From: Boothiomyces macroporosus
Taxonomy: Eukaryota > Chytridiomycota > Chytridiomycetes > Rhizophydiales > Terramycetaceae
Assembly (NCBI GenBank): GCA_027604185.1
Contig: JADGKB010000011.1
Location: 1 to 64,000, forward strand
Direction of reading: 5' to 3'
Length of the DNA stretch: 64,000 bases
The translations under genes and the position numbers were made by a program. The notes below the pieces were generated by a model. It ran no database searches. It was not told the origin of the DNA and worked only from the letters and a program-made list of their open reading frames with translations. This document shows, piece by piece, positions 431 to 63,925 of the stretch (position 1 is the stretch's first letter; the number at the start of each line of letters is the position of its first letter).

Positions 431-2580
431 TTAATTTGGTCGATAACACCATTCACCTCCTTTTGGATTGACAAATATTTGGATAGGAGATACCCCAAGT
501 ACACATGGGTCACATACTTGCCTGCTGGAATCCTTTGAAGCACACCCAGCGCATACGATTCGATCGCAAGATTTACAGTGAATCTATGTTAGTAAACAAC
601 TACTTCTTTATGAAAGAATGTAAATTTTTCTTTACATAAAGTGCAACAATCAATGTGTGATTTCGGCGACTAGGTTAGTTTAATTTCACCCCAATTATAC
701 TCGAGTACAAAGATTCCGCGGTAAGTGATTTTGCTATCCTTTTTGGTTTGGATATCAACAAAGATGATACAATGGAAGATCCAGATGGCAACATTGAAGA
801 CCTTCGTTCACTAATATTAACTGGGCTAGTGGAATAAATTGATGCCCCATCCACATCATGCTGATTTTCAGGTGTTAAAGATCTCGGTGCATTAATACTG
901 AATTTTCTTTCCTGAATGAGAGAAGGCAGGCAGGTATCACAAACCCGCGCTTTCTTTTCACCATTCCTCGAAGGAATGTAGAATGAATTTTGGGAGCAAG
1001 CCCCGCAAACTAGAATACCACAAGATCTGCAGTGGTGCTATGGTTATAATATTTGTACTTTGCGATTAAAGAATGTAAATTTGTTGAAACATACCAAGCA
1101 AGACTGTGCGCTTTCGTCAGGCATCTATTATTAGTTAAATTAAACCCAAATTGGAGCATCAAACTCAGCAATAGGCGAATTAGATGGCAATCTATCGTGG
1201 ATCGCTTCATTTTCAACATGCCATTCTGTGATTGCTTTTCTTATACTCTCAATCCACTGCGTTTTCTCTGCTTCTGATTCTAACTTTAAATAGAACTTAC
1301 GAACATATACAGCAAATGATTTTTCTCTACTTACAATTTGAAAGATGGATAAATGATTATCTTCAGACACTACCTCTTCAACTCGACAGAATTCCAATGG
1401 AATCATTCGGTGAAAATGATAGTGATCTTCAAGGATGCTTGGACTGCAATAGATTAGTATATCTGAAAACAAGATTAGTTCTCTGGGTTGAACAGCTCTC
1501 CGGCTTATTTTCTGTACTCTCCCCCGCCTAATGAATCTTCTTCCAGGGATGAGCAAATTCTAATTTAGTTTAAAGTACGTCTTTAAATCCAATTAATGAT
1601 TTCTGTATATCCACCATTTGAAGCATTGCTTCATGATTTCTTATGGTTTCATTTACAAACGTTGCAACTTGGTTAGTAATCGTTACCTTGGGAGACTGAT
1701 TCAATTGCTTTTTTGATATTTTCATGATCTGGATGATCTTCAGGTGTATGCTTATAAAGATCTTCCAGTAATAACTTGTATCTAGGAATTCTCTGGACTG
1801 GTAAAATCAAAAAAGCTTGAAGCACCAAACCGTGGCTGTCAGGATGAGCTGCTTTGTTCTATCGTTAGCAAAATTTACCTTTGCGAATGCTGCAAACTTT
1901 GCATTCCTTTGGGTGAGATCAGCAACTAAATTCACAGAGTCATTAAATTTTGTGAGAAATATAGAATACACCCGCAGGAAAGGAATCATGATTAGTATAG
2001 ACTTACCAGACTAACAAATATATCTCCAATCAAGTCATTTCCTCTGTTCCACAATTCAATCCTTTTCTGGAGTTGATTGCTCAACTCTCTATTGACGGCG
2101 AGAATACTTTCATGGTGACCAAATATATCCATGATTGCCCTACAATTAGCCCAGCCTACTTTTTAGGTATAATTTCTTCTGGAGTTCCCACCAACGCCAA
2201 CAAGGGTTCATAATATTGCTAGGTTAGATCCTACATACAGTTTTGAGAAATTGCAAATCGGAAACATATCTAATTTCTGTATCCAATATTTCATTCATGA
2301 TCCTCCGTCGTTTAGGTTGTCCAGATTTGACAGTTTCCACTGGGCTCACTTCAAAAATAGCATCCGAGGAAGCAGAGGATATAAAGGAAGGTTGCTCTGA
2401 AATCGCACTAACAATCGACATCCTGTGTGCATGTGGGATTTTGATACTTGGAATTTTGGAGTTTGGCGACAGCGGCGGAAGCTGATCTGTAAGAGGCTCG
2501 TCATTGATGGTATCTTCAGAGTTGAATGTAACCCCGTTGGACAGCGCATTTGTTTTTGTTGGATCTAAAGTTCCCTCCAT
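431..2580 (-). CDS. FGD-like Rho/Cdc42 guanine-nucleotide exchange factor, DH-PH-FYVE-FYVE
   Basis: The spliced product is 649 residues in eleven exons. A Ser/Pro-rich start (1-95) leads into a DH domain (about 95-290; the last conserved region reads LILPVQRIPRYKLLLEDL). A PH domain follows (about 302-420, opening LLIPGRRF). Two FYVE-type zinc fingers come next: RKHHCRSCG at about 444-500, and HKEIHCKSCD at about 582-630. Such proteins activate Rho-family GTPases, and FYVE fingers bind phosphatidylinositol 3-phosphate on endosomes. Introns: 2219-2238, 2140-2159, 1987-2006, 1859-1878, 1668-1686, 1560-1578, 1125-1145, 1038-1058, 670-689, 584-603. The third ends in TG, not AG. The second FYVE lacks part of the basic motif, so its lipid binding is uncertain. 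The family call is strong; the GTPase specificity is inferred. Confidence 0.88.
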
Positions 2581-3022
2581 AAGGTTTTGGATTAACTTTC
2601 AGCCTAAAGAAAAAAGTTTGTTTTCAAAACTGGTGATGTCAATTTCATCTGATAACATCAAAAAAGGAAAGTCGATCAATTATTACTGGTCTGTAATACA
2701 AGTGGCAGGTCCATGTTTGGCTGGGATCAGTCTGTAATACTGGGTAGGAAATGAATGTGCTAGGATCTCCACTCAGCAATACATGAGCTCGGTGATATTA
2801 GCAGCCACTTGAGTATATATGACTGAACTATCCTCTGAGGCACTCAAGTATTTCCTTCCTCTGTCAGTATGGGAAAGCATCGGCTTCTACGATGAGAAAT
2901 TCATGACGAGGTGGATTCTAGAAATCTTTCCAACTCTTATATACATGAAATGAATGATGCCAACTAATCATCATTTTCAAAAAATAGCTCCAATTTCGAC
3001 TTTGAAATTTTTTTTGTTAATC
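2581..3022. other. divergent intergenic region between FGD-like gene and mL43
   Basis: No coding signal is seen. The promoter-like motif AACTTTTT occurs on the minus strand (2611-2618), about 30 bases before the FGD start codon. The rest should hold the mL43 promoter. Confidence 0.5.
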
Positions 3023-3539
3023 ATGCTGGCAAAAAAACAGTTGATTAGAAGGCTACAAGACGCAGGCTTGAACTGGAAGCTTCTACCTGAACCAGTAACC
3101 ATTACTAATCTAGAATTTAACTTCAGCTCATATCAATGGAGCAAAGAATTTTGTCCCGCCAATCTGCAAACTCGAGATATTTTACAATCCACCAAGACCT
3201 GGAGCAGGAGGAGATTCACAGGGAATGGTCAATTATTTAAATAATAGCATTAAACAGTTTGCAAAGCAACGACCATATATTGAAATCGCTGTTACAAAGC
3301 GTTCGGGACCGCCAGAAGTTGTTGCACACTATAATAATGGAACTGTCGATGCTATGAGGACACCTAGATGGAAACCACACCAAATTGGAAAATTAGTGAA
3401 CGATATGTGTGACATATCCTCTTCTTTGAACAAAGAAAGACAATTCCCACGCAATGTAAAGAGAGGTACTGGATCGCATATGGATAAAGCACTACCTCAA
3501 TGGAGTCCATTCACAGCCGAAAAGATTTTCAAACCTTAA
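3023..3539 (+). CDS. mitochondrial large-subunit ribosomal protein mL43 (L51/S25/CI-B8 family)
   Basis: The product is 165 residues in two exons; the only intron is 3095-3113 (19 nt). The core carries the family's thioredoxin-like L51/S25 pattern: strand CKLEIFYN, a glycine-rich loop, then helix YLNNSIKQFAKQRP and strand YIEIAVTK. These proteins sit in the large subunit of the mitochondrial ribosome (yeast counterpart Mrpl51). I chose the ATG at 3023 because it opens the frame joined by the intron; an earlier ATG at 2954 is in frame but adds residues without family similarity. The stop codon overlaps an AATAAA (3538-3543), probably the polyadenylation signal. Confidence 0.82.
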
Positions 3540-3555
3540 TAAAAATATGGATTTA

Positions 3556-5200
3556 TTAACGATACTTGTTCATGAAGGACTCATGGAATACCTTGATGTT
3601 TTGAATGAAATCGTCCATTTGATTTTCAGGAGGCAAGAAGGTTGATCTAAAGTGATATGTTCCATCTTTTTGTCCAAATCCTGAACCTGGAACCACACAA
3701 ACACCAGTAGCATTAAGCAAGTCCATGGCATACATACTGTCAGGATCTTGGTCTTTGATAACAGCTGCTGCAACTGCCTTTGCTGGGAGTTTGACTTGTG
3801 GGAAGAGGTACATGGCTCCTTGAGCATCGTTACAGGTAACACCTTCGAGGCCGTTAAATGCAGCAGCAAGCCTTTGAGCTCTCCTCTTTAGAGAATCTCG
3901 TTAGTAAAATAGTACCGTAAATAGCGTTCTGTTCCTTTTCGTATAATGGATATGAAGGATCCCCTTTCTTTGGAGGGTTCATCATCAACTCTACCATAAC
4001 TTGACCTTGTACCGGCGGGCAAAGAGAAACAGATGCGATTTTGTAGAATAACTCCATAACTTCTGGAGCAACATTGACACATTCAAAGTAACCACCTTAG
4101 TCAGTAGGAAATACCTCTTCTTCCACATTCACCAATCATCCCTTTACTAATAGAATGGAAAGAAATCAATTCAACAGTATCATACTTTGACCCCATACTC
4201 TTCAATACTTTTTTGAAAGAATGGAAAGGCAGCTCTTGGGTGTAAACGTTAGCTTGGTAAACTTCATCTGCCATTAGGACAAGATTTTCTTGACGACAAA
4301 ACTCAATGATATCTTTCATGGCATCAACTGAAAGGGTTTGTCCGGTAGGATTTCCAGGATTGATCACACATAATGCGCGTACATCCATTCCGTGAACGTC
4401 TCTCTTGACTTTTTTCAACGATTTCACCAATTCTTCAATCTAGGTAAGTATAATTTACGGTTAAAGACCAATCTTTAGATTCATCCAAATAGTACGGAAC
4501 AGGTTTACCTCCAAACAAAGAAATTGAGGCAGTATAGAGTGGATACTGTGGAATAGGAATCATAATACCAACATGATCGTGAGCAATAATAGTTTGAAGG
4601 ACTGTTTGAACACCAGGAGAGGCTCCAGCAGTCAAGAATATTGAATTTGGGTCTGCTGGGAATCCATCTCTTTTTTCAATAGCTTCAGCAATACGTTGAC
4701 GTACTAAAGGGATACCTTTGTCAGACTAATAGAACCTTGAGAATGAGAATAAGCGCCGACACTACCGCCCATTGCTTTCAAGAGCCTAGATCAATAAAAA
4801 TCTACTCTTTAGCCCTTTGAATTGTATCTGGAGGGAATATTTCCTTTGTTAATTCCGCATTTTTGCCATCCAACAAATCAGGATATTCCAGTAATGCTGA
4901 GACTTGTCTAAAGAACGTAATCGGCTTTTGTCCTAATTGCTGTGGGTTACCAATGTTGCAAGATACGACATTTTTGAATGGTAATGAATTCTGATTTTTT
5001 GCCAATTCCTACTGTTACGATAAATTACATTTCGTAGTTCTTCTGCACGAATTGCTTGCTCTCCACGTACGGCGTATTCAAAATCCACCACCTTTGGGTT
5101 GACTGTATGTGCGTTTAAAATACCTATTATGAACGAGTACTGTACCCATGCTGCGAGTATGGCGAATGCATCTGGTTGGTAACACCTTTAATTTGAACAT
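3556..5200 (-). CDS. alanine aminotransferase (class I PLP aminotransferase), likely mitochondrial
   Basis: The product is 501 residues in eight exons. It converts alanine and 2-oxoglutarate to pyruvate and glutamate. Recognisable blocks are VDFEYAVRG, GAYSHSQGIPLVRQ, CVINPGNPTGQ and the PLP-lysine region SISKGMIGECGRRGGY. The C-terminus reads PGSGFGQKDGTYHFR. The N-terminus (MFKLKVLPTRCIRHTR) is basic and lacks acidic residues, like a mitochondrial presequence. Introns: 5124-5145, 5009-5028, 4786-4805, 4716-4735, 4440-4458, 4096-4114, 3897-3915. Each junction restores a family block, for instance IYD/SLKRRAQR. It is convergent with mL43, with 16 bases between the stops. Confidence 0.93.
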
Positions 5201-5590: not shown

Positions 5591-6656
5591 ATGACCAACG
5601 GTATCAAAATCTTTTCAGGAAATTCACACAGGGAATTTGCGATCCTAGTCGCAAAGTAATATCTTTCCTTATGTTAGACGTTTAGGATTGAACCTGGCCA
5701 ACTGCGTCGTGAACAAGTACTCCAACCAAGAAACTTCGGTAACCATTGGGGAATCTGGTTAATAATTACTAATATTCAGTTCGTGACGAAGATGTCTTTA
5801 TCATCCAATCTGGCTGTGGCGAGATTAATGGTTTTTAAGCTTTAATGTAGATAACTTGATGGAATTGTTGATCATGATCAACGCTTGCAAAACCGCTTCC
5901 GCAAAGAGAATTACTGCCGTTATGCCATGTTTCCCATATGCCAGACAAGACAAAAAAGATAAATCTCGTGCACCTATCACTGCCAAATTGGTTGCTAATA
6001 TGTTGACCGTTGCTGGAGCTAACCATGTTATTACTATGGATCTTCACGCTAGTCAAATTCAGGGTTTCTTCAACATCCCAGTTGACAACTTGTATGCCGA
6101 ACCAAGCACACTTAAACACATCAGAGATTGTATTCCTGACTTTAGCAGTGGCGTTATTGTTTCCCCAGATGCTGGTGGTGCTAAAAGGTTTCTTAAAATT
6201 AACAGCAGAGCAACCGCAATTGCCGATAAATTGGATGTCGAATTCGCTTTGATCCACAAGGAACGAAAGAAGGCAAACGAAGTTTCAAGAATGGTTCTTG
6301 TTGGTGATGTTAAAGGAAAGGCATGCATCTTGGTTGATGACATGGCCGATACCTGCGGAACCTTGGGATTGGCGGCTAAGGTGTTGATGGAAAACGGAGC
6401 CACCAAAGTGTACGCTATGGTAACACATGCGGTATTGTCAGGCAAGGCTCTGGAAGTAATTAATAATTCATGTCTTGAGCAAATTATTGTGGTAAATTCC
6501 CAATTAATGTAGACCAATACTATTCCTCAAGATCATATTGCTCCTCTGTGCCCCAAACTACAGTTTATTGATGTTTCTTCTACATTTGCCGAAGCAATTA
6601 GACGTACACATAACGGAGAAAGTATCAGCTATCTCTTCAATTATGTGCCAAATTAA
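5591..6656 (+). CDS. PRS: ribose-phosphate pyrophosphokinase (PRPP synthetase)
   Basis: The product is 326 residues in five exons, a normal length for the family. It makes 5-phosphoribosyl-1-pyrophosphate from ribose 5-phosphate and ATP for purine, pyrimidine, histidine and tryptophan synthesis. Visible motifs are the N-terminal SGNSHREFA, the [12 protein letters not shown] block, [14 protein letters not shown], and the PRPP-binding loop [13 protein letters not shown]. Introns: 5656-5677, 5758-5779, 5831-5850 and 6492-6512. The last precedes the C-terminal exon that ends with SYLFNYVPN. Fungi usually have several paralogues; I cannot tell which one this is. Confidence 0.95.
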
Positions 6657-6708
6657 CTTAATAAAAAACATGCATACTACCATGAATATTACTCTATTAA
6701 ATACGAAT

Positions 6709-8788
6709 TCAATGCTTTCCTCTCCCTCTACCACGGAAAGATCCTCTTCCCCGTTTGCTGTCAGCACTTCTTCTTTCCCTTCCGTCAAAGCTCTTCTTTT
6801 TCTTATTAGGATTAAATGTGATGGACAGATTTCCAGAACTACCAACCTTAACGTCTTCTCTCGGCCCAACCGCTTCCTTTTCCAATCGTTCTTCAAACAA
6901 TGCCTCCTGTGCATTTTCTCTCTGGATAGTTTCTTGGTCATTTGCAGTGGCATTGAAACCGTCCTGATATCAAATCTAATTACCTTGAGCTCATACATCT
7001 GTGGCCCTCTCTTCTTTGTTTTGTATTTAGCAAATCTAATTTCATCTTGATCTTCAGAGTCTTCAGAGTCAGGATCTTCTTGCACTGGCTCATACTTTGC
7101 TTTAGTAATTTTGGTCTGGGATTCAGATGGGTGATGAAGTTTGTATTCGTGCGAGGTAGTATCCACTTGGAACGCAGGGTCAGAGAACATGCTCTTGAAA
7201 CGATCATCCTCCATGATAGTCGATGTATCTTTCTTTTTCTTTTTCTTTTGTTCGTTATCAGAATCATCTGTAAGATCCAACAAATCGGCTGCAATCGCAG
7301 AGTTGACTTTTGGCAATTTGCTCTTTGCGGATATTCTTGATGCTCTCTTTTCTTCGATTTTCTTTTGAACCAAATTCTTTTTGTATTCATCGAATTCAAA
7401 TGGATTGGCAATCGCTTTCGCCTTTTCATAAAGACGCAAGTCTACAAAGAATCCGTGCATATAGGCTTTCAATACATTTGTTCCAATCAAATGATCCAAT
7501 CCAAGACTATGGTCAAGCAAAACTTACTTTGAGAGTTCCTTTCTAGTAACAAACTTGTAGTCGTCATAAATAGTAGTGTTTGGATTTTCTTCCAATTCTT
7601 CAGTAATGTTATCCAAGAAAGAGCACCATTTTGGCGCAGTTCCTAATGCAGGGATGTAGTACGATTGGATTTGAGTTGCTAAATTAAATTGCAAGTACCT
7701 TCCCCTGCAAGCATAATCAATCCAGAATCATCAAATACACAGGTGTGATTAATGTCATTTGGAGCCTCAATATTTGTGAAAATTGCTCCATCATTTTTGT
7801 TCCACATTTTAACAATCTTTGTATCTGACGATATAACGTTTCCGGATTCATGAAACTGTAGCGAATGGATTGGATATCCGTACTGGTGGTCTTTTACTAT
7901 TAAAGGAGTTGGCCTTCTTAGATCATAGAGCACAATTTGTCCAGTTGATGTTCCTGCCATGAATGACAAGCCATCAGCACCAAATTCAATACTTGATATT
8001 TCAGGCACAGCATCCAGGAGAGATGAATCAATTTTACTCACAACAGCTTCTGCAACGTCTAATATTCCAATCCGCTTTTTTTCAGTTGGATGCCAAAATT
8101 CTACTTTTCCATTTGAACCCCCAAAGCCAAATAATTGGTGAGCAGGGCTAATTTTACAAACGTTAACTTCTGGAAGTGAAGTTTCTAGTGGTGCCATGAA
8201 TCTGCCTTGTTCCAAATTTAACCTCCATACTTCATTACTAGCACCACCAATCAACACATCGCACGAAGGATAATGATAGGTAAGATCTCTACCAAACTAT
8301 TGTCAGTACAAACCAACCTTTGGCACTCTAGTTTGATAGTGCATGCCGTAATGTGAATGAAATTCAACTGTTCTGTCAGTTTGCAAGTGCACACTCTTTG
8401 TCCAATCTTCTGATAAAATCTTTTCTTAAATAAAATGTACCTCAAATGTAACGTTTTCGCAGTTGGTATGTCGTTCAAATTTCATGGACATTTGATCCAA
8501 ATCCCACACCCGAATCTGTGGTTTATAAACACCTGAATTAGCAATAAAACACCAGTCGCCATTAAAAACTTTCCATCTCTGGTCTGTCGCAGCTTAATGC
8601 TGGCTTCTGGAAACTGAAAATCCTGAATAAGTTCAATACGGTTTCTCCAAGCTACGGTTGGATAAATAAATACCTTGATCATATTTCAACTTGTTTTTAT
8701 TCCTTTGGACTTGCCAGTCAGGAATTGCTGATTTAGAAGCACTGGTGATAGAGTATATTTTTATGTTGTTTGCATTCGAAACTTGCAT
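6709..8788 (-). CDS. ENP2: Enp2/NOL10-like nucleolar WD-repeat protein of 40S biogenesis
   Basis: The product is 644 residues in eight exons. The start MQVSNANNIKIYS, the block RIELIQDFQFPEAS, VPKFGRDLTYHYPSCD and the C-terminal LGLDHLIGTNVLKAYMHGFF are all characteristic of Enp2/NOL10. These proteins have an N-terminal beta-propeller and work in the small-subunit processome. A Lys/Glu/Asp-rich tail with runs of lysine and an RGRGSFRGRGRG end suits a nucleolar protein. Introns: 8652-8673, 8533-8552, 8420-8440, 8297-8317, 7679-7698, 7507-7527, 6964-6983. AACTTTTT lies on the coding strand at 8807-8814. It is convergent with PRPP synthetase, 52 bases apart. Confidence 0.94.
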
Positions 8789-9056: not shown

Positions 9057-10268
9057 ATGCTTGGAATTAACGCCAAAATCACCATTACCATAATTGCAAT
9101 CCCAGTAGTAGCATACAGCTTACACCGTTTGTTTCAACATCCTAAATCGACGCTTTCCGATCGCGACAGTGTGGTAAATCTTGATCCAGGTGAAGAGTTC
9201 CAAGGAATGTTTGACAATGTGCGATTTGTTACTTTTTATGAGAGGTTGGAGCTTCAAGACATCCTGGATAAAACTCAAGCGGTTCTAAATGCAAACCCTT
9301 GGCTTGCTTCAATTTACCGAAAAGTGAACGGAAAACTTCAACTTCACTACAACAGAGTGAACAAAGCTTCCGACTATGTGCGATATATTGAATCTGACAT
9401 TAAAGTAAGTGAAGGCACTGTGGAGCTACTCCTCCGGTACTGCCGATTACCAAAAGGATGCAACTCTGTAAACAAAGACATCCCCCTCTTTGAAGTAATT
9501 GTTGTCAAGCTCAAGGACAAAACTGCACTGATTTTTGATATGTCTCATATTGTTGGTGATGCTCAAACACTTTACATGATATACAGAATGTATGATTCAA
9601 ATTCACACCCATATTCGATGCAAATTGAAAGGGTGAACATCAAGGATAAGCTAAATAACTTTAGCAAGGAAGTTCCAAACATGATGTTGCTGGTCTACAA
9701 CAGCTTATTCCCAACTACCAACAAGACACGAACATTCAAGGTGCTAAAAGATAGAATGGAAGCAGAAAAGATATTACAAAAGACAGCTGATACCGAGTTC
9801 CTGTCCACGAACGATATTCTAACAAGCTGGGCATTTAACGCTTCAAAATGTGATATTGGAGTGATGCCGATCAATTTACGAGGAAGAGTAGCCGGAGTAC
9901 ATGACAGCCTTGCCGGCAATTACGTTCATGGAATTTTTTATTCAAAAAATGACTTTCAAACGCCCCAAAATATCCGAGGAAGCTTGCCACGGAAAGATGG
10001 GATATATCAGAGAATGGGTGATCGTCCTCTGCCTCAAAGTCTATGGGAAGTGTTCACAACCAAAGTCGGATCAGTAACTAATTGGGTTGCGCCACAAAGG
10101 GATGTTGTGATCAACGGAAATATTTCCGTATTTCATGCGCCTTTACTAAACCCAACGATCCCAATGACAGGACACTTTACAATCTATAAGAGTAACAATG
10201 AAATCTATATTCGCTGTTGTTCAAAGTATTTGGAGGAGATACCACACTATTTGTCGGAGTTGCAATAA
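9057..10268 (+). CDS. membrane-anchored HxxxD-type acyltransferase, paralogue 1
   Basis: A single exon encodes 403 residues. An N-terminal hydrophobic segment (about 4-22) would anchor it. The body has the layout of the CoA-dependent acyltransferase fold shared by BAHD, condensation and wax-ester synthase enzymes. Visible are HIVGDA with the likely catalytic His164 and Asp168, the block STNDILTSWAF, NLRGRV, and a GNY motif. Unlike its two paralogues, the residue after the catalytic Asp is Ala instead of Gly. The substrate is unknown. It lies 34 bases upstream of paralogue 2 in the same direction. Lack of introns is unusual here. The start is the first ATG of the frame. Confidence 0.7.
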   Translation: MLGINAKITITIIAIPVVAYSLHRLFQHPKSTLSDRDSVVNLDPGEEFQGMFDNVRFVTFYERLELQDILDKTQAVLNANPWLASIYRKVNGKLQLHYNRVNKASDYVRYIESDIKVSEGTVELLLRYCRLPKGCNSVNKDIPLFEVIVVKLKDKTALIFDMSHIVGDAQTLYMIYRMYDSNSHPYSMQIERVNIKDKLNNFSKEVPNMMLLVYNSLFPTTNKTRTFKVLKDRMEAEKILQKTADTEFLSTNDILTSWAFNASKCDIGVMPINLRGRVAGVHDSLAGNYVHGIFYSKNDFQTPQNIRGSLPRKDGIYQRMGDRPLPQSLWEVFTTKVGSVTNWVAPQRDVVINGNISVFHAPLLNPTIPMTGHFTIYKSNNEIYIRCCSKYLEEIPHYLSELQ

Positions 10269-10302
10269 AAATCTTGTGTAACTAATTAAAAAGTTCTCTT
10301 TG

Positions 10303-11553
10303 ATGGAAGTCAAGTTAATTTTAGTAGGCCTCATTCTCCTGCTCTCAGCAGCATATTATTGGATAGTTAGATCAAAGAAGCAAGTCCCAAAACAAAGTTA
10401 TTTAGGGGCTTTTGACTATAGTGTTAAACCGCATATGGCTATTGAAGACTTCACAATTTATATTCCTCCTATTTCAACAGTTACATTCTACACCGACTTG
10501 CCTATCAAAAACATCTATGACAGAACTAAACAGATCATCGACGCAAATCCTTGGCTGGCTTCAAGAATAAAGTCTGGCGTAAATGGCTTTGAGCTGCACT
10601 ACAACCAGCATAACAACCACTACAACTATATTTCAGAGCATGAAATTGAAGACGAAATGTCATTTAATCCTATACAACTGCTTCGATTCAGCAGAGTGAA
10701 ACTGGGTATCGAATGTCAGGATCAGGATTTACCTCTCTTTGACATAAATATTGTCAAAATGAAAGAAAATACTGGGCTGATTATTACGATGAACCATGTT
10801 TTAGGTGACGGGGATACCTATTTTAAAATTTACAAGATGTTTGATGACAAAATCCCAATAACAAAGATGAGCTTGGAAAGAATCAAAGGTGTTCCTGAGC
10901 AGGTGGATCATGTCTTTGGAATGCGAAAAGACATGACTGGACTTTGGTTGGACTATAGATATTGGTGGAGAGACAGGTTTCCTCGGAATCTTCCGGTAAA
11001 GATTTTCAGAGTATCGAGGGAAGCAATCAACCAACAAAAACAATCCGAGTCAAATAAAGACGGAGAAAAATTCTTATCAACCAACGATATCCTGACCAGC
11101 TGGATATTCAATTCGTGTCATACCTGCTTTGGCATTGCGATGGTCAACCTTAGGGGAAAACTTGACATAGAAATTCCGGAAAATGCTGCAGGGAATTACT
11201 TTACATCGCTGAATTACACTAAAAGAGACTTTATACTTCCTGGCCAAATCAGACGGTCGGTCACTAAAAGAAATGGCGTGTACATCAAAGACACACCAAC
11301 TCCTTTCCCTCCCATATGGAGCGTGTTTTCCAGCAATTCGAATCTAACAGACGTATCCAATTGGACAGGCTTCTACCATCATCTTGTAATTCAAGGGAAT
11401 GAACCGGTTTATCACTGTCCATTGGCAGAATCTACTTCTCCAGATTCGAAAATAATCATCTTTAAGCCAACCCCAAATGATGTATTCCTTCATGCATTTG
11501 GGTTAGTTGAAGAGGAAGTATTGGCTTCGGGCTTGGTTGTAGAATTGGAATAA
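10303..11553 (+). CDS. membrane-anchored HxxxD-type acyltransferase, paralogue 2
   Basis: A single exon encodes 416 residues. An N-terminal membrane segment (about 3-22) is followed by a short basic stretch, which suggests the catalytic domain is cytosolic. The catalytic signature is NHVLGDGDT with His165 and Asp169. STNDILTSWIF and NLRGK match the paralogues at the same spacing, and so does the C-terminal WTGFYHHLVIQGNEPVYHCP block. It is closer to paralogue 3 than to paralogue 1, because that C-terminal block is nearly identical in 2 and 3. Acyl donor and acceptor are not predictable from sequence. It could equally be a wax-ester or secondary-metabolite acyltransferase. Confidence 0.7.
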   Translation: MEVKLILVGLILLLSAAYYWIVRSKKQVPKQSYLGAFDYSVKPHMAIEDFTIYIPPISTVTFYTDLPIKNIYDRTKQIIDANPWLASRIKSGVNGFELHYNQHNNHYNYISEHEIEDEMSFNPIQLLRFSRVKLGIECQDQDLPLFDINIVKMKENTGLIITMNHVLGDGDTYFKIYKMFDDKIPITKMSLERIKGVPEQVDHVFGMRKDMTGLWLDYRYWWRDRFPRNLPVKIFRVSREAINQQKQSESNKDGEKFLSTNDILTSWIFNSCHTCFGIAMVNLRGKLDIEIPENAAGNYFTSLNYTKRDFILPGQIRRSVTKRNGVYIKDTPTPFPPIWSVFSSNSNLTDVSNWTGFYHHLVIQGNEPVYHCPLAESTSPDSKIIIFKPTPNDVFLHAFGLVEEEVLASGLVVELE

Positions 11554-11634
11554 CTATTTGACAATAAATTCTGATATTAGAAATAGATATTGTACTAGGA
11601 ATCCCGAAACTCTTTGTAATGAGACAGTGATTTA

Positions 11635-46952: not shown

Positions 46953-48348
<1,396 letters not shown>

Positions 48349-48466
48349 ATTTTTACTAAATAAAAGTGTATAACCCATGTAGTTTGTCAAAGTCATGTCA
48401 ATTGAAGTGTGGCTAAGCAATTGATAACACTGCATGATCATTTTATATTTTGCAATTATTTTCAAG

Positions 48467-53441: not shown

Positions 53442-54759
53442 TTAACCAATTATATTAATTAATTTTTCCATTACTAAAGGGTTTGATAAAACAGTTGCGG
53501 TTAATACGATAGAAGCAAGGCCAATGAGCTAGATTAGTTTTAAATTACCATATAAGCGACCAAATTATTTTGCTTTACAGGTGAATGTTCAATTAATCTC
53601 AATTTCTCTATTGATTTTGCTTGATCTTGAACAGTTTTTGTTAAAGATTGGATTTGAGTGCTCAGCTTCTCATTCTTTGATTTTTCAGCATTTAAAGAGC
53701 CAGATAAATTGCTACATTCAGCTTTTAGAGAATCGATTGAAGATTGAAGTTTCTGCTTTTCCTTTTCTTCTGCTTCAGCCTTGACTTGAATTGTTGCTAG
53801 TTGAGTCTTTAGATCATTTTTGGCAGCAGATAGCTTATCTTCAAATTCTTTCGATTGCTTTGCAAGGTCTTCTCGAAGTTTCTAATTAAAAACAAGATTA
53901 CTGCAAAGTCGCCTTCAGTGTCATTCTTGAGGTCAGTGATTGCCGTCTTTAGTTCTTCCACTGCACTAGACATATCGCTCTTGATCTCTGCGGACTCTTG
54001 CGGCCTGTATTCTTGATACGATTTAAGATCAATATTATGCTGATCGACCACATCTTTCAAGGCAGCGAGTCTCTCGTTCATTTCAGCGATAGTCTTGGAA
54101 AAATCTGTTGGTAAATCATCCTTTTTCTTTCCCACAGATAAAGCCGATTTTTCTATATAATCAAAGGAAGATTGGATTTTCTTTAGGGTTTCAGCAGCTT
54201 CCAAAGATATTGTTTTCTCGTCCGCAATAATGGACAAAATCGCTTCGGCATCAGTCTTTGACTTTAAAGTCCCAGTAGGATTAACAGTAGAGGTAACTGG
54301 GGATAGAGCTGGCCCCAACACTATTTCTACAGTCACGGTTGTTGAAACTTTGTTGTATAATACTAGCATTAAATTTCAGTAACCTTTGCCGTCATCGTCT
54401 CTGATATCTACTCCGAATTCCAAGGTATCCCCAGATCTAAGCGGTTTGAGTGTACTCAACATTCCTTCTTCACTCAGACGCTCTCCGTTCACAAATGTTC
54501 CGTTACTGGACTTTAAATCCTGAATCCAGACGGTATTTTTGCTGAAACTCAATTCCGCATGAACCCTTGATAATACCTTGGCGTCAAAATATCCATTATT
54601 TGGCTCCGGAGCTGTTTTTGCAGACACTTTTCTCCCAATCTTCTGGGGAGCATTTTGTTTAACTACGATTCTTTTCTCTACAAACGCATCATTTACTGGC
54701 GACAGTATTACTCTAAATTTAGATTATTTTTACATCGCTTGTCGGTTGTCTCCACTCAT
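53442..54759 (-). CDS. FHA-domain, coiled-coil, tail-anchored protein (SLMAP / Far9-Far10 type)
   Basis: The product is 411 residues, five exons. An N-terminal FHA domain (about 10-125) shows KIGRKV, VLSRVHAELSF and SSNGTFVNGERL, the phosphopeptide-binding loops. About 230 residues of coiled coil follow, then a single C-terminal membrane segment (LIGLASIVLTATVL) with a short tail. This order is that of SLMAP and the yeast Far9/Far10 (Vps64) subunits of the STRIPAK phosphatase complex. Introns: 54713-54733, 54363-54383, 53882-53901, 53529-53548. Its stop is 6 bases from the NELF stop. Confidence 0.85.
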
Positions 54760-55023
54760 TTGCTGTTCAATTTTCCTTGTTTTTGTGATCAGCCAAGATC
54801 AGCTTTTTGTTTTTGAACTTGAACCGACCATAGCTGTCGACTTGAAATCATCATTCCACACCATGTTTTTGGTCTTGAAAATGTTGGATTTATTTACTTG
54901 TTGGGATAGCTGCGCGTACGCACTCTCGAGTTAAATACCTGAGCAATATTACTAGTAAATTATCGCATGTTTAAATTGGATATATACCAATTTGACTTTG
55001 CTTTATTTTTCTTGAATCTAAAA

Positions 55024-55409
55024 ATGCAAAACGAGTCGCTGGAATTTGTTTTGAACAGGATAGAAAACTTACTCTCGATATATATTACAGACAAGGATGG
55101 AGTAATGGTCATGAAAGGTACTCTAATATTGATGTAGCTTGTTCAAAGGATATGCCAGCAAAGTTATTGGAGCCGTCATTCACAGCTTCATTCTTGTTGT
55201 CGAGTGAACAGCTCAGCAAAGTTAACTTGGGCGAGAACAAGTCGATTATTTGTAGATTTGACGATTACGACATTGTGCAATTCAAATATCACCAGTTTGT
55301 ACTGAATTTGATTGCAAAGAATGGTGCAAATATCGGAATGATGCTAGCTGTTGGTAAAGAGTTGGAGGAATTTATGAATGTATTGTCTAGAGAACTTATA
55401 AATATATAG
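55024..55409 (+). CDS. LAMTOR3/MP1 (Ragulator, roadblock-fold subunit)
   Basis: The product is 121 residues, two exons (intron 55118-55137). It aligns with LAMTOR3 over its length: YITDKDGVMVMK, a middle strand KSIICRFDDYDIVQFKYHQF, and the end LAVGKELEEFMNVLSRELI. This roadblock protein pairs with LAMTOR2 in the lysosomal or vacuolar Ragulator complex that anchors Rag GTPases for TORC1 signalling. Identity is good; the partner subunits are not in the window. Confidence 0.85.
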
Positions 55410-55417
55410 TAGTAACT

Positions 55418-55941
55418 TTATTGGAACTTGCACACTTCACGCTTGATTTGATAAGATTGCGATTTGTAATCAACCTCCCAAATCAAGTCATAATGGCTTC
55501 CAGGATACACTGGAGCAGGGCCGCTCACAAAATTAGCTGCGATGCTCCCCAACTGGCCGTGTTCCCAGGCAACTAGAACAATTTTGGAGCCCTTTTGAAT
55601 ATTAGAGTTGATTAGATTAGTAGCGCAAGTAATATCATCCCGATCACATTGATCTTGAATAGGGATGTTTAGTACGTGAGAAAGGGGAGTGATAGTTTCA
55701 ACAGCTCTATGAGAGTGATCTGCTGGGTTTTGGGCAATCAATGTATCTGGGGAAGGGTACTTTTGCTTTTTGCCAGCAAAAACTAAAGTGCTTAGGCATT
55801 GGGCCCTTTGATATCCTATGATTAGATAGGGACACCTTGTGCACTAAGGTCTTCACCACTGTTAGCGTCTTGTTCCCCATGGCGGATAAAGTAGATTGTT
55901 TGAGCAGCAACAGCACCTAGCAAAAGAGAGATAAACTTCAT
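55418..55941 (-). CDS. secreted histidine-phosphatase superfamily protein, tandem copy A
   Basis: The product is 167 residues, two exons (intron 55816-55835). A signal peptide (MKFISLLLGAVAA) leads directly to the catalytic block YFIRHGEQD with the nucleophile histidine. A second conserved His lies in LVAWEHGQLG. It belongs to the phosphoglycerate-mutase-like (RHG) superfamily. Small secreted members in fungi usually have unknown phosphoester substrates. Copy B is 328 bases away, on the same strand and similar end to end. Confidence 0.85.
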
Positions 55942-56269
55942 TGGCCTAATCATATTGCCATCTCTTTTTATACCCTCTTACCACTTTAGGCTGTTGGCCC
56001 ACGCAAACAATTCACGCTGCCTGGCGCGGGACTTTTACAATTTATCACACAACATTGTAATAGAAAGTGTTATTTTCATATCATACTATCGGCTAATGCA
56101 TATCTCAAGTATCTTTATTAGTTGATGGATCTCAATCGCAACCATCATTATTGCATCTTCCAAACAAAAAAACGTGGACAGGGACTCCATGTGGTTTGCT
56201 TTTTAAGAAAGCGCATATTTTAGGGAACTGGCTGGAAAAGTTTGTTTGAGCCCATTTTATTATATTCTA
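55942..56269. other. intergenic between tandem phosphatases
   Basis: Should hold the promoter of copy A. No coding frame or repeat seen. Confidence 0.4.
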
Positions 56270-56767
56270 TTAGAATCCACAGTTTTCGTAAGCGAGTGTG
56301 TAAGTTTTGCTTGGAACATCAACAACCCATACAATGTCGAAATGGTCGCCTGGATAAGTTGGCGCATCACCACTGATAAAGTTTGCAGCAATATCACCCA
56401 ATACTTGGTGTTCCCAAGCGAGAAGGATGATTTGGGATCCATTGGAAATGTCATTGTTGATAAGGTCAACGGCACCTTGAACGTCATCTCTATCAACATT
56501 GTCTTGAATAGAAAGGCCTAAAGCTTGAGCAAGAGGAGTAACAGTTTCTTCTGATCTGCTAGAGTGCTGAGCTGGGTCTTGCGCAATAATAGTATCTGGG
56601 GATTTGAAAGTCGGATTTGATCCAGCAAATACAGAGTTGGCAAGACAATCTGCTCTTTGGTATCCTTGAGCATCCAAATCAGACCCGCTGCTTTTATCTT
56701 TTTCGCCATGGCGAATAAAGTAGATTGTTTGAGCAGCAACCATAGAGAGGAGTACAGAAAATTTCAT
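56270..56767 (-). CDS. secreted histidine-phosphatase superfamily protein, tandem copy B
   Basis: A single exon encodes 165 residues. Signal peptide MKFSVLLSMVAA, catalytic YFIRHGEKD, second His in LLAWEHQVLG. It matches copy A along its whole length but has no intron: the sequence LDAQGYQRA is continuous where copy A is split (LSAQ / GYQRA). An upstream in-frame ATG exists, but the chosen start gives a proper signal peptide. The substrate is unknown. Confidence 0.87.
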   Translation of the reverse strand: MKFSVLLSMVAAQTIYFIRHGEKDKSSGSDLDAQGYQRADCLANSVFAGSNPTFKSPDTIIAQDPAQHSSRSEETVTPLAQALGLSIQDNVDRDDVQGAVDLINNDISNGSQIILLAWEHQVLGDIAANFISGDAPTYPGDHFDIVWVVDVPSKTYTLAYENCGF

Positions 56768-57608
56768 TCGTGTTATTGGCGTGCTGGCAGTTCTCTGGTA
56801 TTTATAGCCATGATGGTCAAGAACGTTTCTCATTGAACCTTGTGGTTGGGTCTTTGAGCATCTGTTCAAGGTACCCTGGTGGTGAATATCACCATGCCAC
56901 GGATTATTTGCAGGTTCATCCTCCGTTTAACGAAAGGAGCATGTGCCCAGGGATATTGTAGGTATTAAGTTGATCATATTCAATTATTCAAGGTTTCGCA
57001 ACGAAAACGTTTTCAGTTCTAGACTTGTAAAAAGTCTGTTTTCCAGAGATAAATATCAGGATGAAGAACCAAGAATACATCCGCCGCTTATTTTAAATAA
57101 TATGTGAAGTTTACATTCGTTATTTCGTCTTTTAGGTCCACCGTTGCTTTGCCCTTGTCCATAAAAGGACTCGTTCAATTGGGTCAATGGAAAAACCAAA
57201 AGGGTTTCAAGTTCAATCGCAAAGAAGAAGCGGTATAGAATGAACGAGCAAAGATCTTATTTTGCTCGAGTAGAAATTCAATTAATGATTCATAGCTCTT
57301 GAAAGCACATGACAATTGTACAACAAAAATCTGTAAAACGTGCCTAATATTCGTAGAAAAAGGAAATTTTCAAACAAAAATCGCTTGCAAGATCTTTGTA
57401 ACATTCTCTTACTTTGTGAGCATGTAATCTGAGTTTAATTTCGCGAGAATTTTGATATTCGTGCTTGTATTTCGTTTCTATCGCTACAGAAAACTGATAC
57501 GCTGGTACCGACCGATATTTATTCTTTATTTGATTTTGTAACCAGAAAGCTCTTTGGAGCGCCTTCGTTGCGGTGAATCAAATTGTTTGCGCCAAAAAGC
57601 ACAGGAAA
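56768..57608. other. intergenic, no gene seen
   Basis: About 840 bases between divergent genes. A GTTCAATCGC near 57210 resembles a tRNA T-loop, but no matching acceptor or anticodon arms can be drawn. No open frame of interest. Confidence 0.4.
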
Positions 57609-58529: not shown

Positions 58530-58587
58530 ATTCTAAATAAAAGATTACTATATATTATTCACTATCAGTATTCTTATAACTAGCCAA

Positions 58588-59892
58588 CTAATCGTCAAGT
58601 AATTCATCTTCTTCATCGTCATTTTCTGGTTCAGAATGTCTTTCTTCAGATACTTTTGGTGCCGTCGCAAACGGCTTTCTGCTTTTGCGCTGCTGTTCGA
58701 TTGCGTCTATTTGTGCCTGCATGCCCTTTGACATTTTTGGCTCATCATCTTCAGTTTCCTGTTCTTGGTCTGACCCTTCTATATCTTTTTCTCCATCAGA
58801 CTCTGAATTTATGCTAATTGACCCATCGTCCGAACCTTCCTTTGATTAATGCAACTTACGTCTTCTGATTCTTCTGAATCTCCTTCAGATTGAGCATAAT
58901 CTTCATCTTCTGATTCTTCATGTGCGATTGGTGCTTGCTCCTCTCGTGAAACTTCTTCATCTGACTCTGCTGTACGATGATTGATCAAATTGATGAATTT
59001 AGCTACTCCTTTGATTAGAGAATATTACCATCATAGATTTCGTAATCAATCATTGAAAATTCAGTTTGATTTTCATCTTTGTCCGTGACCAGAATATTAA
59101 ATGTTCTTCCAGTAATTGAAACGATTTCGATTCCCAAGATATCATTAAATTCGTAAAACATTATTGGCTTTTTGATACCAAAAAATAATCCTTCCTTGAA
59201 GAACACTAGCATTCTCGGTTAGCTGATATTTACCCTTCCTTTGCTTTCAAAAAGCACTTTACTGCTACTTCAGTTTCAGGGAATATCTTTGGTAACGGCT
59301 CGATGAATTGTAGTTTGTAGTACTTTTGGATAATTTCCTGCACAATCTGCTTAGGCTTTAATTTGACCAATTTTAGCTCAGATTGAACTTTGAATTTGGT
59401 ATCTGAATCATCCACCCCAAATAAGATCGACTCTCCCACATCCTTGTGAATAAATACAATCGTCCAGTGTAGTTTCGATTTGCTTGGTGTTACAAAACAA
59501 GCAACGTGCTTCAAATCTTGCACTTGTAATGCAAATTCAGTGCTGGCTCCAACCGCTAAACATATATGCTTTTCATAGAACACCACCGATGCTTTTTTTC
59601 TTATTGGCAGAGTAACAGATATATCGGTAATCGTTGCAACTGATTTCCCAAAGTTTTCTAGCAACTTTGGTTTTTTGTGAACTTGATCAGTGGAGAAATG
59701 GTCAAGTAATGCACTGACTGTTGGTAATGTATCTGGATATCGGTCAAGCATATCCTGCACTTGTCTTTTCAATGTGGATGGAAGTGTGGTCAGCAGTGGA
59801 TCTCCAGTCATGATTGCAAATTTCCAAATTATTTTTTCAGGTACCTCAAATTGTCCGGAAGTAACTATAAGTGAGTGTGTAGCTGAAAGCAT
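58588..59892 (-). CDS. RTT106: Rtt106-like histone chaperone
   Basis: The product is 414 residues, four exons (introns 59214-59233, 59009-59028, 58840-58859). Double PH-like core: the first half includes VVFYEKHICLAVGAS, and the second LVFFKEGLFFGIKKPIMFYEFNDI and RTFNILVTDKDENQTEFSMID, which is diagnostic. A strongly acidic Glu/Asp/Ser tail (from about residue 300) fits histone binding. Rtt106 deposits H3-H4 acetylated on H3K56 and takes part in silencing. It converges with the PLC-X gene, 58 bases apart. Confidence 0.87.
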
Positions 59893-59961
59893 TGCTTGTA
59901 TATTCCTTTTATAGCGGTTGTGATGTAATTGAAGCGCGTCTCAAAGTTCAACTTTACTCTG

Positions 59962-60625
59962 ATGCTAAACTTTTTCGGGTTCTACAACGTATTCCTATAC
60001 TAATATAGTCTGTTAAATTACATAAATCGAATACGGATGACCATAGACTCCAGAATTTGGCAAAATCCACGCTGGGCTCTGCGTCGCTTTCAAAACTCGT
60101 AAAGTTGCCAAAAGGTGAAGATTTGAACGAATGGATAGCAGTTCATATCGTGGATTTTTACAATCAGTTGAATTTGCTATTCGCAACTTGCCAACAATGT
60201 ACCAGAAATAATTGTCCAGTAATGAATGCGGGCCAAAAGTATGAATTTCATTGGTGTGATGGAGTTGAATTCAAAAGACCAAGTAATTATGGTTAATCGT
60301 AGTTAAACTATCCGCACCAGAGTATATAACAAATTTATTGAATTGGGTCAAAGGGTATATTGATGACGAGCAAGTATTTCCAACAGGAACTAACCAGTTC
60401 AACAAAAAGTTCTTGCAAACCGCGAAACAAATATTCAAGCGATTGTGCAGGGTGTACGGTCATTTGTACTTGTCGCACTTTGAAGAGTTTGAAAAATATA
60501 GAGTTGAATCAGTGCTGAATACCAGTTTCAAGCACTTTTACTTTTTCGTAAAAGAGTTTGAGCTTGTGCCAGAGAAGGATTATGAGTATCTCAAGCCAAT
60601 GATTTCAAAGATAGAAAAGAACTAG
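59962..60625 (+). CDS. MOB1: Mob1 kinase activator
   Basis: The product is 207 residues, three exons (introns 59989-60008, 60283-60302). Spliced blocks match Mob1 throughout: KSTLGSASL, LPKGEDLNEWIAVHIVDFYNQ, the zinc ligands CPVMNAGQKYEFHWCDG, KLSAPEYIT, LNTSFKHFYFFVKEF. Mob1 activates NDR/LATS-type kinases in mitotic exit or Hippo-like signalling. The first exon (MLNFFGFYN) overlaps the sequence AAACTTTTT seen upstream of other starts, so a start in exon 2 is not fully excluded. Confidence 0.9.
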
Positions 60626-60668
60626 TGTAAAACTAATATAGAGCGTGTTACTATTCAGAACGGCTTCT

Positions 60669-62318
60669 TTATTTAAACAACCTCTTTTCATAGTTGTATA
60701 ATCCATGAACACCACCCTCGGCCTGAGCGCTAGGAGTTCTCTTTTCAAATTTAACTTTGCCTTCAGCAACGCCGTCTTGGAGTGCAGGAATATCTTTGAC
60801 ACCAATATCTTGGAAACCATGTTGGACACCAGTGATGAGGTATCCCATGAATTTTTTAACAGTGCCCTTATCAACAACAGATCCAGATACACCTTGTGCA
60901 ACCTTTACACGTCCATCTTCAGAAAAGTAACGTTTACCAGCAGCATCTCCGGTATCCATGGCTTCCAAAGATCCCATACCACGATATCTCTTTAGTCTTT
61001 GCCCTTCATGGTAAAAGTAGTCACCAGGAGATTCAGTAGTACCTGCCAACAAACTTCCCATCATCACAGCCGAAGCACCAAGAGCAACAGCCTTAATAAT
61101 GTGTCCTACATTGGAAATACCACCATCAGCAATGACTGGTACGCCAAATTGACGAGCATACTGGGCAACTCTAAATACAGCAGTTCCTTGTGGTCTACCG
61201 CAAGCCATAACTTCCTGGGTAACTAGAATAAGAAATAAACTTACTGCAAATACTTCCAGAACCCATACCAACTTTAATTGCATCAGCACCAGCCAAAATC
61301 AAAGATCGAGCTTGTTCTTCAGTAACTACATTTCCCGCAATTACATCTATTTGTGGGTAAGTTTCCTTGATGTATTTGATCATATTAACTTGGAAGAGAG
61401 AATTTCCTTGGGATGAATCTAATACAACAATGTCTAGCCCAGCATCTACCAATGCAGCCAACCGGATTTTGTCTTCTTCATGTGTGGAAATTGCAGCTGC
61501 GCACAACAACTGCTTGGATGATTTAGTCTTGGATGCCAATGGATAATCTCTCGCCTTGATTAAATCAGAACGAGATAAAAGAGCAGTCAAGTTTCCATTT
61601 TCGTCAACGATTGGTAATTTTCCTGGAATTACAACAAATATACCTTTACGAGAAGAAGATAAAATCTTGTTGGCTTCAGCCAAAGAAATTCCCTTTTTGG
61701 CAGTGACCAATTCAGTAACCATGATATCTTTCAACTTTCTGCTGGCGTCAGCTGCACTTTGCAAAAAGTCGATATCTCTGGAAGTGACTAAACCCAATAA
61801 TTTAGAGCCCAATTTGCCGTTTTCAGTTATTGGGATACCAGAGTATCCAAACTTTTCTTTAATCTGCAACAAATCTAAAACAGTATTGTTTGGACCCAAG
61901 CAAACAGGATCGCTAATGAACCCATTTTCAAATTTCTAGATTAATTGAAAATTACCTTGACTTTACGAACCATTTCCGCTTGATCAGCTACAGGACAGTT
62001 GTGGTGAATAACACCAAGACCTCCATTTAACGCCATATGAACTGCCATTTCAGATTCTGTGACGGTATCCATAGGAGAGGACAACAGCGGGGTTTTAATC
62101 TTGAATCTTTTTGTAATTTGAGTTTCCAAATTTACGATTGAAGCTGGGAAATCAATGTAACCAGGGAGGATGAGGAAATCATTATAAGTTAACCCGCCGG
62201 ATATTTGAGCATCAAAAAGCTGAGTACCGGTGAGCCCATCGTTGGTTGGCTGCTGGAGTTTCTGCAAGAGTTCTTTGTTCTTTTGAGGGTCAGTAGATAA
62301 AATCAATTCAGTAGACAT
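60669..62318 (-). CDS. inosine-5'-monophosphate dehydrogenase
   Basis: The product is 535 residues, three exons (introns 61936-61955, 61223-61244). It oxidises IMP to XMP, the first step towards GTP. Visible: [15 protein letters not shown], two CBS domains (about 120-235), [13 protein letters not shown], the catalytic-cysteine loop GMGSGSIC, and the flap [11 protein letters not shown]. Intron 2 lies directly after the catalytic cysteine codon. It converges with Mob1, 43 bases apart. With PRPP synthetase it is one of two nucleotide-pathway genes in the window. Confidence 0.96.
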
Positions 62319-62663
62319 TTGTAATAAATTAAGCCAAATTTTTTTTCATTTTTTTTTACTTGTATCCGTGTGGCGTATCGCCATGGAGCTTGAAAAGGGA
62401 ATTTTACGGAAAATTTTAGATATATAGCTTTGATATATAGCCTCTACTAGATGATTAGATAGCGGAATGAAAATAAGCTATCCCAACAGTTCGTTAGCGT
62501 AAATCAAGCAGGATGATTATGAACCTGACACGGATAACGATCTTGGAAGGTCAGTAGAATCTGAACCACACGGAAAAGAAACCCCCTTCTCGGTCGTCCT
62601 TTGGAATACTTTACAAGGAACTTTGAAAGGTAAAACATTTATTTTAGTGCGTATGGAAACAGA
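62319..62663. other. intergenic, no gene seen
   Basis: Long T-rich and A-rich runs near 62340-62360 precede the IMP dehydrogenase start. Nothing else recognised. Confidence 0.4.
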
Positions 62664-63925
62664 CTATTCTTCAAAGTCATCACCAATAAACTCACCAAGT
62701 CGTTCATGCATGTCTATCCACTCACTCTTATCAATACCATGTGCACCCTGTTCGAAATCTCTTCTTAAAGCAGGATCGAAATACAGATGATTAAAGTCAT
62801 TGATCCTTCTGGCATAATCCAAGCAGCTTCCAAGTCCGACTTGAATCTCTTTGATTTCAAATTTAGGGAATCCCTTAAATTCAGTGAATGGATCAAACAA
62901 GATGGATTTTGGCTTGGACTCTTTACCTCTGTAAAGCATGTATTCTTCATAGGTTCCTTCTTTATCAAGTGTCATATCCCACTTGTTGAACTCTAATCCT
63001 AATACCTTTCCAATTGAACTGTAATAATTCAAATCTATACGTCTGGAATCATTAAATCTGGTGGGCAGATTCAAGGATTCGATTCCTAATCCAATCAAAG
63101 CACTTTGCTGATAAAGAAATGAAAAATCTGACGAAATATCCCAATGGTTTACACTTGGAAGGTGAATTGGAATAAATGTCGCTTGTTCCAACAAGTTGTC
63201 TAACACTAGAATTTTGTTCATGTCAGAGAGTGTCTTTTGCTTTAAAGAATTAGTCTTGTTTTGCTAAATTAGCAAGAATTACCGTAATTCCATAAACCAC
63301 AATACTCTTACTGTATTCTTCGGCAAGATCAGTAACCATTCTGGACATTAAGCCTGAAAATCCATCGTCCAAGTCTGAAAATATTTGAAATCCTTGGGAA
63401 GTATCACATTCTTCCATTTGTTTACGGATCCCATCCTCAATATCGAGCGTCTAAATTAGCAAATATTACATGCTGCGGATCAATTTCTTGGTTGTAATAC
63501 TGGTACTTGTTTAGTTCATCGCCAAGAGTGAATTGGTTTATCTGGTAGACTGTATCCCTATCATAGTAGACGGAATTGAAATCAGATGCATATTCAGCAT
63601 TATTCAATGACTTTGTGTAATCTTTTTCTTCTGTTGCTTCGGATTCCAAATCTTTAATGAATTCAGAAGGCTCGTTTTCTTCTTGGCGAATTACTTGAAT
63701 TTTCCCATTCCAATTCACTTGTTCATCAGCCGCAGTTGTTGTTCCGACTGACTTGTTGTAGTCAATCATTAAGAGGCGGGGATAATATTGATCTTTGACT
63801 TGCTTGTACAACACCGAGTCATTGAAAAAAGTTTGCTGATTATAATAATTCCCAATTATATTGAAATAATGTGTTGTGACGAATGAGCTTTTGTGTCCAA
63901 ATGACAGCGTAACAATTTCCCTCAT
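62664..63925 (-). CDS. DML1: Misato/Dml1-type tubulin-like protein
   Basis: The product is 407 residues, three exons. It begins MREIVTLSFGHKSSFVTTHYFN, as Misato proteins do. Across the two introns (63451-63469 and 63264-63282) it reads EECDTSQGFQIFSDLDDGFSG, the tubulin/FtsZ-like glycine block. An acidic end GEFIGDDFEE closes the protein. Misato/Dml1 is needed for mitochondrial DNA inheritance and morphology in yeast and flies. The two introns differ at two positions only. Confidence 0.92.

Follow-up and report, generated by a model that had tools for sequence, protein, structure and literature searches.

Introns of about 20 nucleotides in the chytrid fungus Boothiomyces macroporosus

Gene models and introns of the window

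The stretch analysed here comprises the first 64,000 bases (1-64000) of contig C11 (JADGKB010000011.1) of the assembly of Boothiomyces macroporosus, a species of the Terramycetaceae (Chytridiomycota, Rhizophydiales); the assembly has 15,203,306 bases in 216 contigs. This stretch is called the window; its protein genes are interrupted by very short introns. We resolved 110 introns in 41 gene models, and 107 of them, lying in 35 models, measure 19-25 nucleotides (nt), distributed as 23 of 19 nt, 49 of 20, 23 of 21, nine of 22, two of 23 and one of 25 nt. The three longer ones (133, 116 and 194 nt) are doubtful. The original prediction for this DNA, made from the letters alone, had placed nearly all introns at 19-25 nt and most of them at 19-22 nt, which is borne out, while its count of 103 introns in 33 genes is replaced by the figures given here.

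Several genes are recognised by homology. Alanine aminotransferase (3556..5149, minus strand) has introns at 3897-3915, 4096-4114, 4440-4458, 4716-4735, 4786-4805, 5009-5028 and 5124-5145, and PRPP synthetase (5591..6656, plus) at 5656-5677, 5758-5779, 5831-5850, 6188-6208 and 6492-6512. A NOL10/Enp2-like gene (6709..8788, minus) is interrupted at 6964-6983, 7507-7527, 7679-7698, 8297-8317, 8420-8440, 8533-8552 and 8652-8673, a CDKL-like kinase gene (46956..48348, plus) at 47124-47144, 47443-47461, 47573-47592, 47683-47703, 47844-47863 and 48038-48057, and the IMP dehydrogenase gene (60669..62318, minus) at 61223-61244, 61623-61643 and 61936-61955.

A RhoGEF/PH/FYVE-like gene (431..2580, minus; gene finder and PDB matches) was obtained as two models, 431-1989 and 1992-2580, with introns at 584-603, 670-689, 1038-1058, 1125-1145, 1280-1300, 1560-1578, 1668-1686, 1859-1878, 2140-2159 and 2219-2238. 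The half-models needed joining, and they are joined by a candidate 20-nt GT...TG intron at 1987-2006 on the same strand, which has the usual branch motif and spacing; a 47-nt intron proposed originally was not reproduced. The segment may use TG as a rare acceptor, or its end may have been altered by mutation or by an error of sequencing; non-AG acceptors are rare at best, TG giving 3 calls compared with 0-3 for each of 14 other dinucleotides.

The other models come from the gene finder. On the plus strand, they lie at 3023..3539 (intron 3095-3113), 16322..17184 (16820-16839), 21976..22401 (22016-22035, 22168-22187, 22352-22371), 22440..23436 (22922-22940, 23063-23082, 23264-23282), 23492..24513 (23726-23746, 24005-24023, 24234-24255), 24555..26348 (25123-25142, 25368-25386, 26124-26144), 26683..27791 (26744-26763), 27905..29095 (28100-28119, 28425-28443), 29870..30984 (30443-30462), 31626..33810 (32404-32423, 32684-32703, 33544-33564), 37938..38319 (38163-38181), 38348..43736 (39229-39250, 41610-41630, 42690-42708, 43523-43542), 45696..46795 (45861-45883, 46210-46230, 46727-46747), 48434..51449 (48581-48600, 48919-48938, 50950-50971, 51287-51306), 52092..53435 (52212-52230, 52386-52405, 52655-52673, 52960-52979, 53088-53108), 54967..55409 (55118-55137) and 59962..60625 (59989-60008, 60283-60302). 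Those on the minus strand occupy 11635..12795 (12042-12063, 12452-12471), 15364..16172 (15411-15430), 29123..29534 (29288-29306), 33893..37706 (33971-33990, 34111-34129, 34206-34225, 34522-34540, 35151-35170, 36013-36031, 36960-36978, 37572-37592), 43762..44702 (44372-44394), 53442..54759 (53529-53548, 53882-53901, 54363-54383, 54713-54733), 55418..55953 (55816-55835), 58588..59892 (58840-58859, 59009-59028, 59214-59233) and 62664..63769 (63264-63282, 63451-63469).

The gene at 17553..19444 (plus; introns 17632-17652, 17996-18015, 18285-18305) has a cysteine-rich N-terminus that by eye resembles fungal Zn2Cys6 factors. It is followed by a paralogue-like gene at 19984..21875 (plus; 20042-20066, 20726-20745), which contains the doubtful 116-nt intron (20437-20552), the start of which itself passes for a 20-nt intron. 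The doubtful introns of 133 nt (10192-10324) and 194 nt (56921-57114), like the 116-nt one outside the short count, belong to models at 9057..11553 (plus) and 56270..57162 (minus), the former being probably two tandem genes fused through a false intron. Similar genes stand in tandem over 9057-15337. ARAGORN reports no tRNA in the window, and by eye bases 1-55 resemble the 3' portion of a tRNA gene that the contig start truncates.

Intron lengths, anatomy and junctions

Beyond the window we analysed 22 stretches on 21 contigs, all but one of 10 kilobases (kb) and 217 kb together, which brings the sample to 281 kb or 1.9% of the genome; contig number and the presence of the Prp8 gene guided the choice, which is thus non-random. 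The gene finder, a purpose-written two-strand program, was trained on long open frames. In its first round an intron was any GT...AG segment of 10-400 nt, with a flat length prior and no motif, so that GT and AG were imposed and the inner signals were not. This round gave 123 introns, whose lengths peak at 19-22 nt: 46 fell at 18-25 nt, compared with 6 at 26-33 nt and 11 at 10-17 nt, and there were fourteen introns of 19 nt and none of 18 nt. Eight decoy dinucleotide pairs yielded 6-14 introns each at 18-25 nt, against the 46 for GT...AG, and a ninth decoy, CT...AC, yielded 7.

In a later round the motif and the length distribution were learned as well, 30% of the length prior being left flat, and 44 of the 46 short introns of the first round persist in the final model. 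Over the 281 kb the trained run gave 376 introns in 189 models, of which 362 measure 18-25 nt (18 nt, 2; 19 nt, 87; 20 nt, 153; 21 nt, 78; 22 nt, 32; 23 nt, 7; 24 nt, 1; 25 nt, 2). This places them in the ultra-short class, in which nearly all introns are below about 30 nt and their spread is narrow. The remaining 14 measure 43-331 nt; in eight of these one end itself passes for a short intron, so that some are probably bad models, and none of the 14 split fully into two short introns and an exon. The 362 short introns are evenly spread along genes, with phase counts of 162, 109 and 91, and reach a density of 1.5 per kb of coding sequence; extrapolated from the 281 kb, the genome would hold about 19,500 short introns and about 10,200 gene models.

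A pattern scan of the whole genome, which admits 20-36 nt and so is blind to 19-nt introns, returned 1331 matches compared with 1105 for the reversed control, a weak excess taken alone; among the first 100 matches listed, 83 were of 20-22 nt, against 17.6 under even lengths. Stop-free introns of length 3n appear depleted (21/81 versus 112/281, p = 0.026), as is reportedly the case in Paramecium; we draw no conclusion from this, since the gene finder misses exactly such introns.

The introns share one anatomy. The donor consensus of the 362 short introns, in per cent, is A50 A58 G50 | G T A89 A60 N T60, and the order of signals, GTA (89%), then yTAAy, a few bases and AG, agrees with the GTA, CTAAY or TTAAT and AG motif described originally. 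A G at donor position +5 is present in 16% (58/362); it is also low in the motif-free round (9/46), and training is therefore not the cause. In 352 of the 362 introns the branch A follows the first G by 13, 14 or 15 nt, and in 359 it precedes the last G by 4-7 nt. The two spacers vary independently where the second is 5-7 nt (p = 0.24), whereas the 13+4 combination, which makes an 18-nt intron, was seen once against 7.3 expected (p = 0.001). Full independence was rejected (chi-square p = 0.33 without the 4-nt column, but p = 0.016 with it), because 13+4 is avoided. The rarity of 13+4 and the lack of any 18-nt intron in the flat run indicate a floor of about 19 nt for the total length, which the trained length prior may sharpen.

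To examine the junctions, the spliced models of six genes (alanine aminotransferase, PRPP synthetase, CDKL kinase, NOL10, IMP dehydrogenase and U2AF65) were aligned to solved structures. They contain 33 junctions, six of which fall outside the printed alignments; the 27 inside, to which the count is confined, are all gap-free within three residues (by eye). This supports the removal of the segments. The aminotransferase model is also continuous with the Terramyces and Batrachochytrium proteins, except near the first junction, where N-termini differ.

NCBI gene models at the two loci compared, LUC7 and U2AF65, contain 7 of the 10 introns of our models. At LUC7 the NCBI protein is identical to ours and all three introns (20, 20 and 19 nt) agree. 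At the U2AF65 locus on contig C2 (L029, 433-2548), the NCBI protein HK103_002678 maps block by block onto the DNA; we find seven introns in two genes there, of which NCBI has four (19, 20, 19 and 19 nt). As these gene models are public, the short introns are already in the data, even if undescribed as far as we found.

Spliceosomal RNAs and proteins

The components of the major spliceosome encoded in the genome include the U1, U2 and U6 RNAs and the proteins Prp8, SF1 and U2AF65. The intron-pairing stretches of the three RNAs are canonical: the donor AAG|GTAANT and the branch yTAAy can pair with U1 ACUUACCUG and U2 GUAGUA, respectively, the U1 gene having the 5' sequence AUACUUACCUG, both U2 genes containing GUAGUA and U6 containing ACAGAGA. 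Rfam searches at gathering scores gave no match in the window or in the 22 other stretches. The two U2 small nuclear RNA (snRNA) genes (L026 and L027, on contigs C80 and C178; 142 and 135 bits) have diverged, the 5' halves being alike and the 3' parts more different.

All five protein families with an assignable match are present, namely Prp8, SF1, U2AF65, LUC7 and the METTL16 family, which methylates U6 opposite donor position +4. The Prp8 model has about 2330 residues and six introns of 19-22 nt. SF1 scores above its profile cut-off and has the SF1-HH domain, and its KH region, zinc knuckles and tryptophan motif are recognised by eye. U2AF65 is strongly similar to the solved RRM1-RRM2 of human U2AF65, has a third RRM match and follows the family model up to the model's last residues; by eye it retains the tryptophan stretch through which U2AF35 is bound. 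A search for the U2AF35 zinc finger gave matches at many places and did not single out a U2AF35 gene. The Prp8, SF1 and U2AF65 genes themselves contain such short introns. Thus U1, SF1 and U2AF65, to which the original prediction had pointed, are present alongside U2, U6 and Prp8, and the factors looked at give no clear sign of a reduced spliceosome that would go with the severe space limit it foresaw.

The search for LUC7 gave one locus, the protein of which is named Luc7-like 3 by NCBI, and in a tree of 25 LUC7 proteins chosen from 120 listed it groups with animal LUC7L3 (support 83/84). In Paramecium bursaria LUC7L is lost and LUC7L3 kept, and the donor is conserved only in its exon part, the consensus from +3 to +6 being lost (PMC12862383). 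The parallel to this LUC7L3-only donor recognition is partial: here the -1 G stands at 50%, while the +3 A (89%) and +4 A (60%) are still conserved and only +5 is lost. The LUC7 of Batrachochytrium is of the same type, and the LUC7 type alone therefore cannot explain the short introns.

Interpretation and comparison with known systems

Anatomy, homology and NCBI gene models together argue for a spliceosomal nature of these introns. They are very probably (about 0.93) ordinary U2-type introns, removed by the major spliceosome, that appear to have shrunk to about the smallest length fitting the three splicing signals. Several observations weigh against this reading. Training biases the gene finder towards the patterns it was taught, and the branch position, fitted 3-10 nt from the intron end starting from yTAAy, is not a blind result. 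The U1 gene scores 68.8 bits, just below the Rfam cut-off of 69.5, the U2AF65 fragment reaches 230.7 against a whole-protein cut-off of 310.3, and searches for U5 and U12 gave no match anywhere, which proves nothing. Over the LUC7 and U2AF65 loci our models and those of NCBI disagree at 3 of 10 junctions. The NCBI aminotransferase of Boothiomyces sp. JEL0838 is without 14 residues beside two junctions, and those of Globomyces sp. and Kappamyces sp. are without longer stretches; all these stretches are kept in Terramyces and Batrachochytrium, and we take the gaps as apparent errors of those gene models. Finally, removal from the mRNA is inferred from sequence.

The disagreement with NCBI might suggest that many introns are truly longer and were trimmed to a favoured length by the original prediction and by the gene finder. 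At the U2AF65 locus NCBI gives a 52-nt intron in place of our 19-nt one and a 253-nt 'intron' spanning two of ours, and our own run contains the 14 introns of 43-331 nt. However, the 52-nt version deletes conserved residues that are kept in the Globomyces pollinis-pini protein, and the 253-nt version fuses a separate upstream gene to U2AF65, while the peak emerges under a flat prior and eight of the 14 long introns have a short-intron-like end; we consider such trimming very improbable. It is hardly conceivable that the segments stay in the mRNA and are passed over during translation, or that editing outside the spliceosome removes them, a view for which their small size alone speaks: the GT...AG ends and the branch motif with its spacing are spliceosomal, and so are the snRNAs that match them. 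Chance open frames, sequencing indels or pseudogenes would account for the observation that, without introns, the frames break every few hundred bases, but the decoys, the uniform length and motif and the gap-free junctions speak against them, as do essential genes such as Prp8 and IMP dehydrogenase, which are built alike, and we give them next to no weight. Chance frames were rejected on the flat-prior run and the decoys, pseudogenes on the homology along whole essential genes, and a bacterial origin on chytrid best matches and nuclear snRNAs.

If the introns are U2-type, each may be recognised whole, as a single unit. SF1 and U2AF65 would read branch and acceptor jointly within some ten bases, a span that has no room for a separate pyrimidine tract. 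We propose that U1 would depend on the exonic part of the donor (AAG|GTA), because the +5 G is not kept. Deletions would have worn the introns to the shortest size still spliced, leaving the narrow 19-22 nt range. On the other hand, SPF45/RBM17 could take the place of U2AF65 at the acceptor side, as it does in short human introns whose pyrimidine tract is truncated. The branch A and the last G are no more than 4-7 nt apart; in human cells SPF45 replaces U2AF65 on short tracts (PMC8363638), and P. bursaria keeps RBM17 and SMU1 (PMC12862383). Against this, U2AF65 keeps RRM1-RRM2 and a third RRM match and so looks functional, and we regard the replacement as unlikely, though worth holding in view. 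A broader proposal, which we advance tentatively and at somewhat less than even odds, is that a free-living fungal lineage independently evolved a ciliate-like mini-intron spliceosome with its core branch and acceptor factors retained. The spacers of 13-15 and 4-7 nt and the 19-nt floor would then represent a physical minimum, and donor choice would have moved to the exon side through a LUC7L3-type U1 small nuclear ribonucleoprotein, letting the +5 G decay genome-wide.

Introns of this size were already attributed to ciliates and nucleomorphs in the original prediction, and mikrocytids (16-17 nt) must be added (PMC10245619). A close match in length is the Bigelowiella natans nucleomorph, with introns of 18-21 nt, nearly the same range and the same narrow spread (PMC10245619); that genome is a relic algal nucleus in extreme reduction, whereas here we deal with a fungal nuclear genome of 15.2 Mb and, by the extrapolation above, some 10,200 gene models. 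Mikrocytos mackini and Paramikrocytos likewise have ultra-short, uniform introns with conserved signals, but these number 224, in a parasite with a highly reduced spliceosome (PMC10245619), in contrast to the extrapolated 19,500 introns and the Prp8, SF1 and U2AF65 found here. Heterotrich ciliates (15-16 nt; PMC10245619) and Paramecium (about 25 nt, as in Nyctotherus; PMC5014332) also have numerous tiny introns in free-living cells.

Among fungi, introns below 60 nt are termed ultra-short, and Cryptococcus is the richest in them of those compared (PMC11913375). The average in Cryptococcus is 56 nt (PMC11913375), and Fusarium introns measure 42-529 nt with a median of 57 (PMC5677156), about three times longer than here; both share with the present introns the U2 type, a yTRAy-like branch and a YAG acceptor. 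The Fusarium donor, A38A38G53|G100T99A74A42G93T66, has a +5 G of 93% (PMC5677156), compared with 16% here. No fungal genome with nearly all introns this short was found in the excerpted open-licence full-text literature, which excludes subscription papers and preprints, in agreement with what had been supposed at the outset. Introns of this extreme kind are known but, as far as we found, not reported from fungi, and those described here show a donor change of their own.

A length of about 20 nt is near the shortest known in any organism, and structural work has yet to explain how the spliceosome handles it, given that the human A complex spans 79-125 nt of stretched RNA (quoted in PMC12862383). 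The other cases that we found come from ciliates, from a relic nucleus or from a parasite whose spliceosome is reduced. A fungus of soil and pine pollen (sources given in the strain table of PMC11210171) that has such introns by the thousand, together with canonical U1, U2 and U6 and with SF1 and U2AF65, puts the question beside the best-studied splicing systems. Loss of the +5 G next to a single LUC7L3-like protein lends itself to testing the LUC7 model of donor classes in a natural setting. Under the broader proposal above, the short-intron system may extend to the whole family Terramycetaceae, and it would provide an intron-dense organism that can be cultured for studies of the lower limit of splicing. 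Public gene models call for caution where introns are so short, as they may drop residues or fuse genes.

A minor observation concerns the assembly itself. Sites on contig C2 recur about 42.6 kb apart (five pairs), and likewise on C20 (45.1 kb), C36 (42.2 kb) and C3 (21.6 kb); these are either long repeats or unmerged haplotypes of the assembly.

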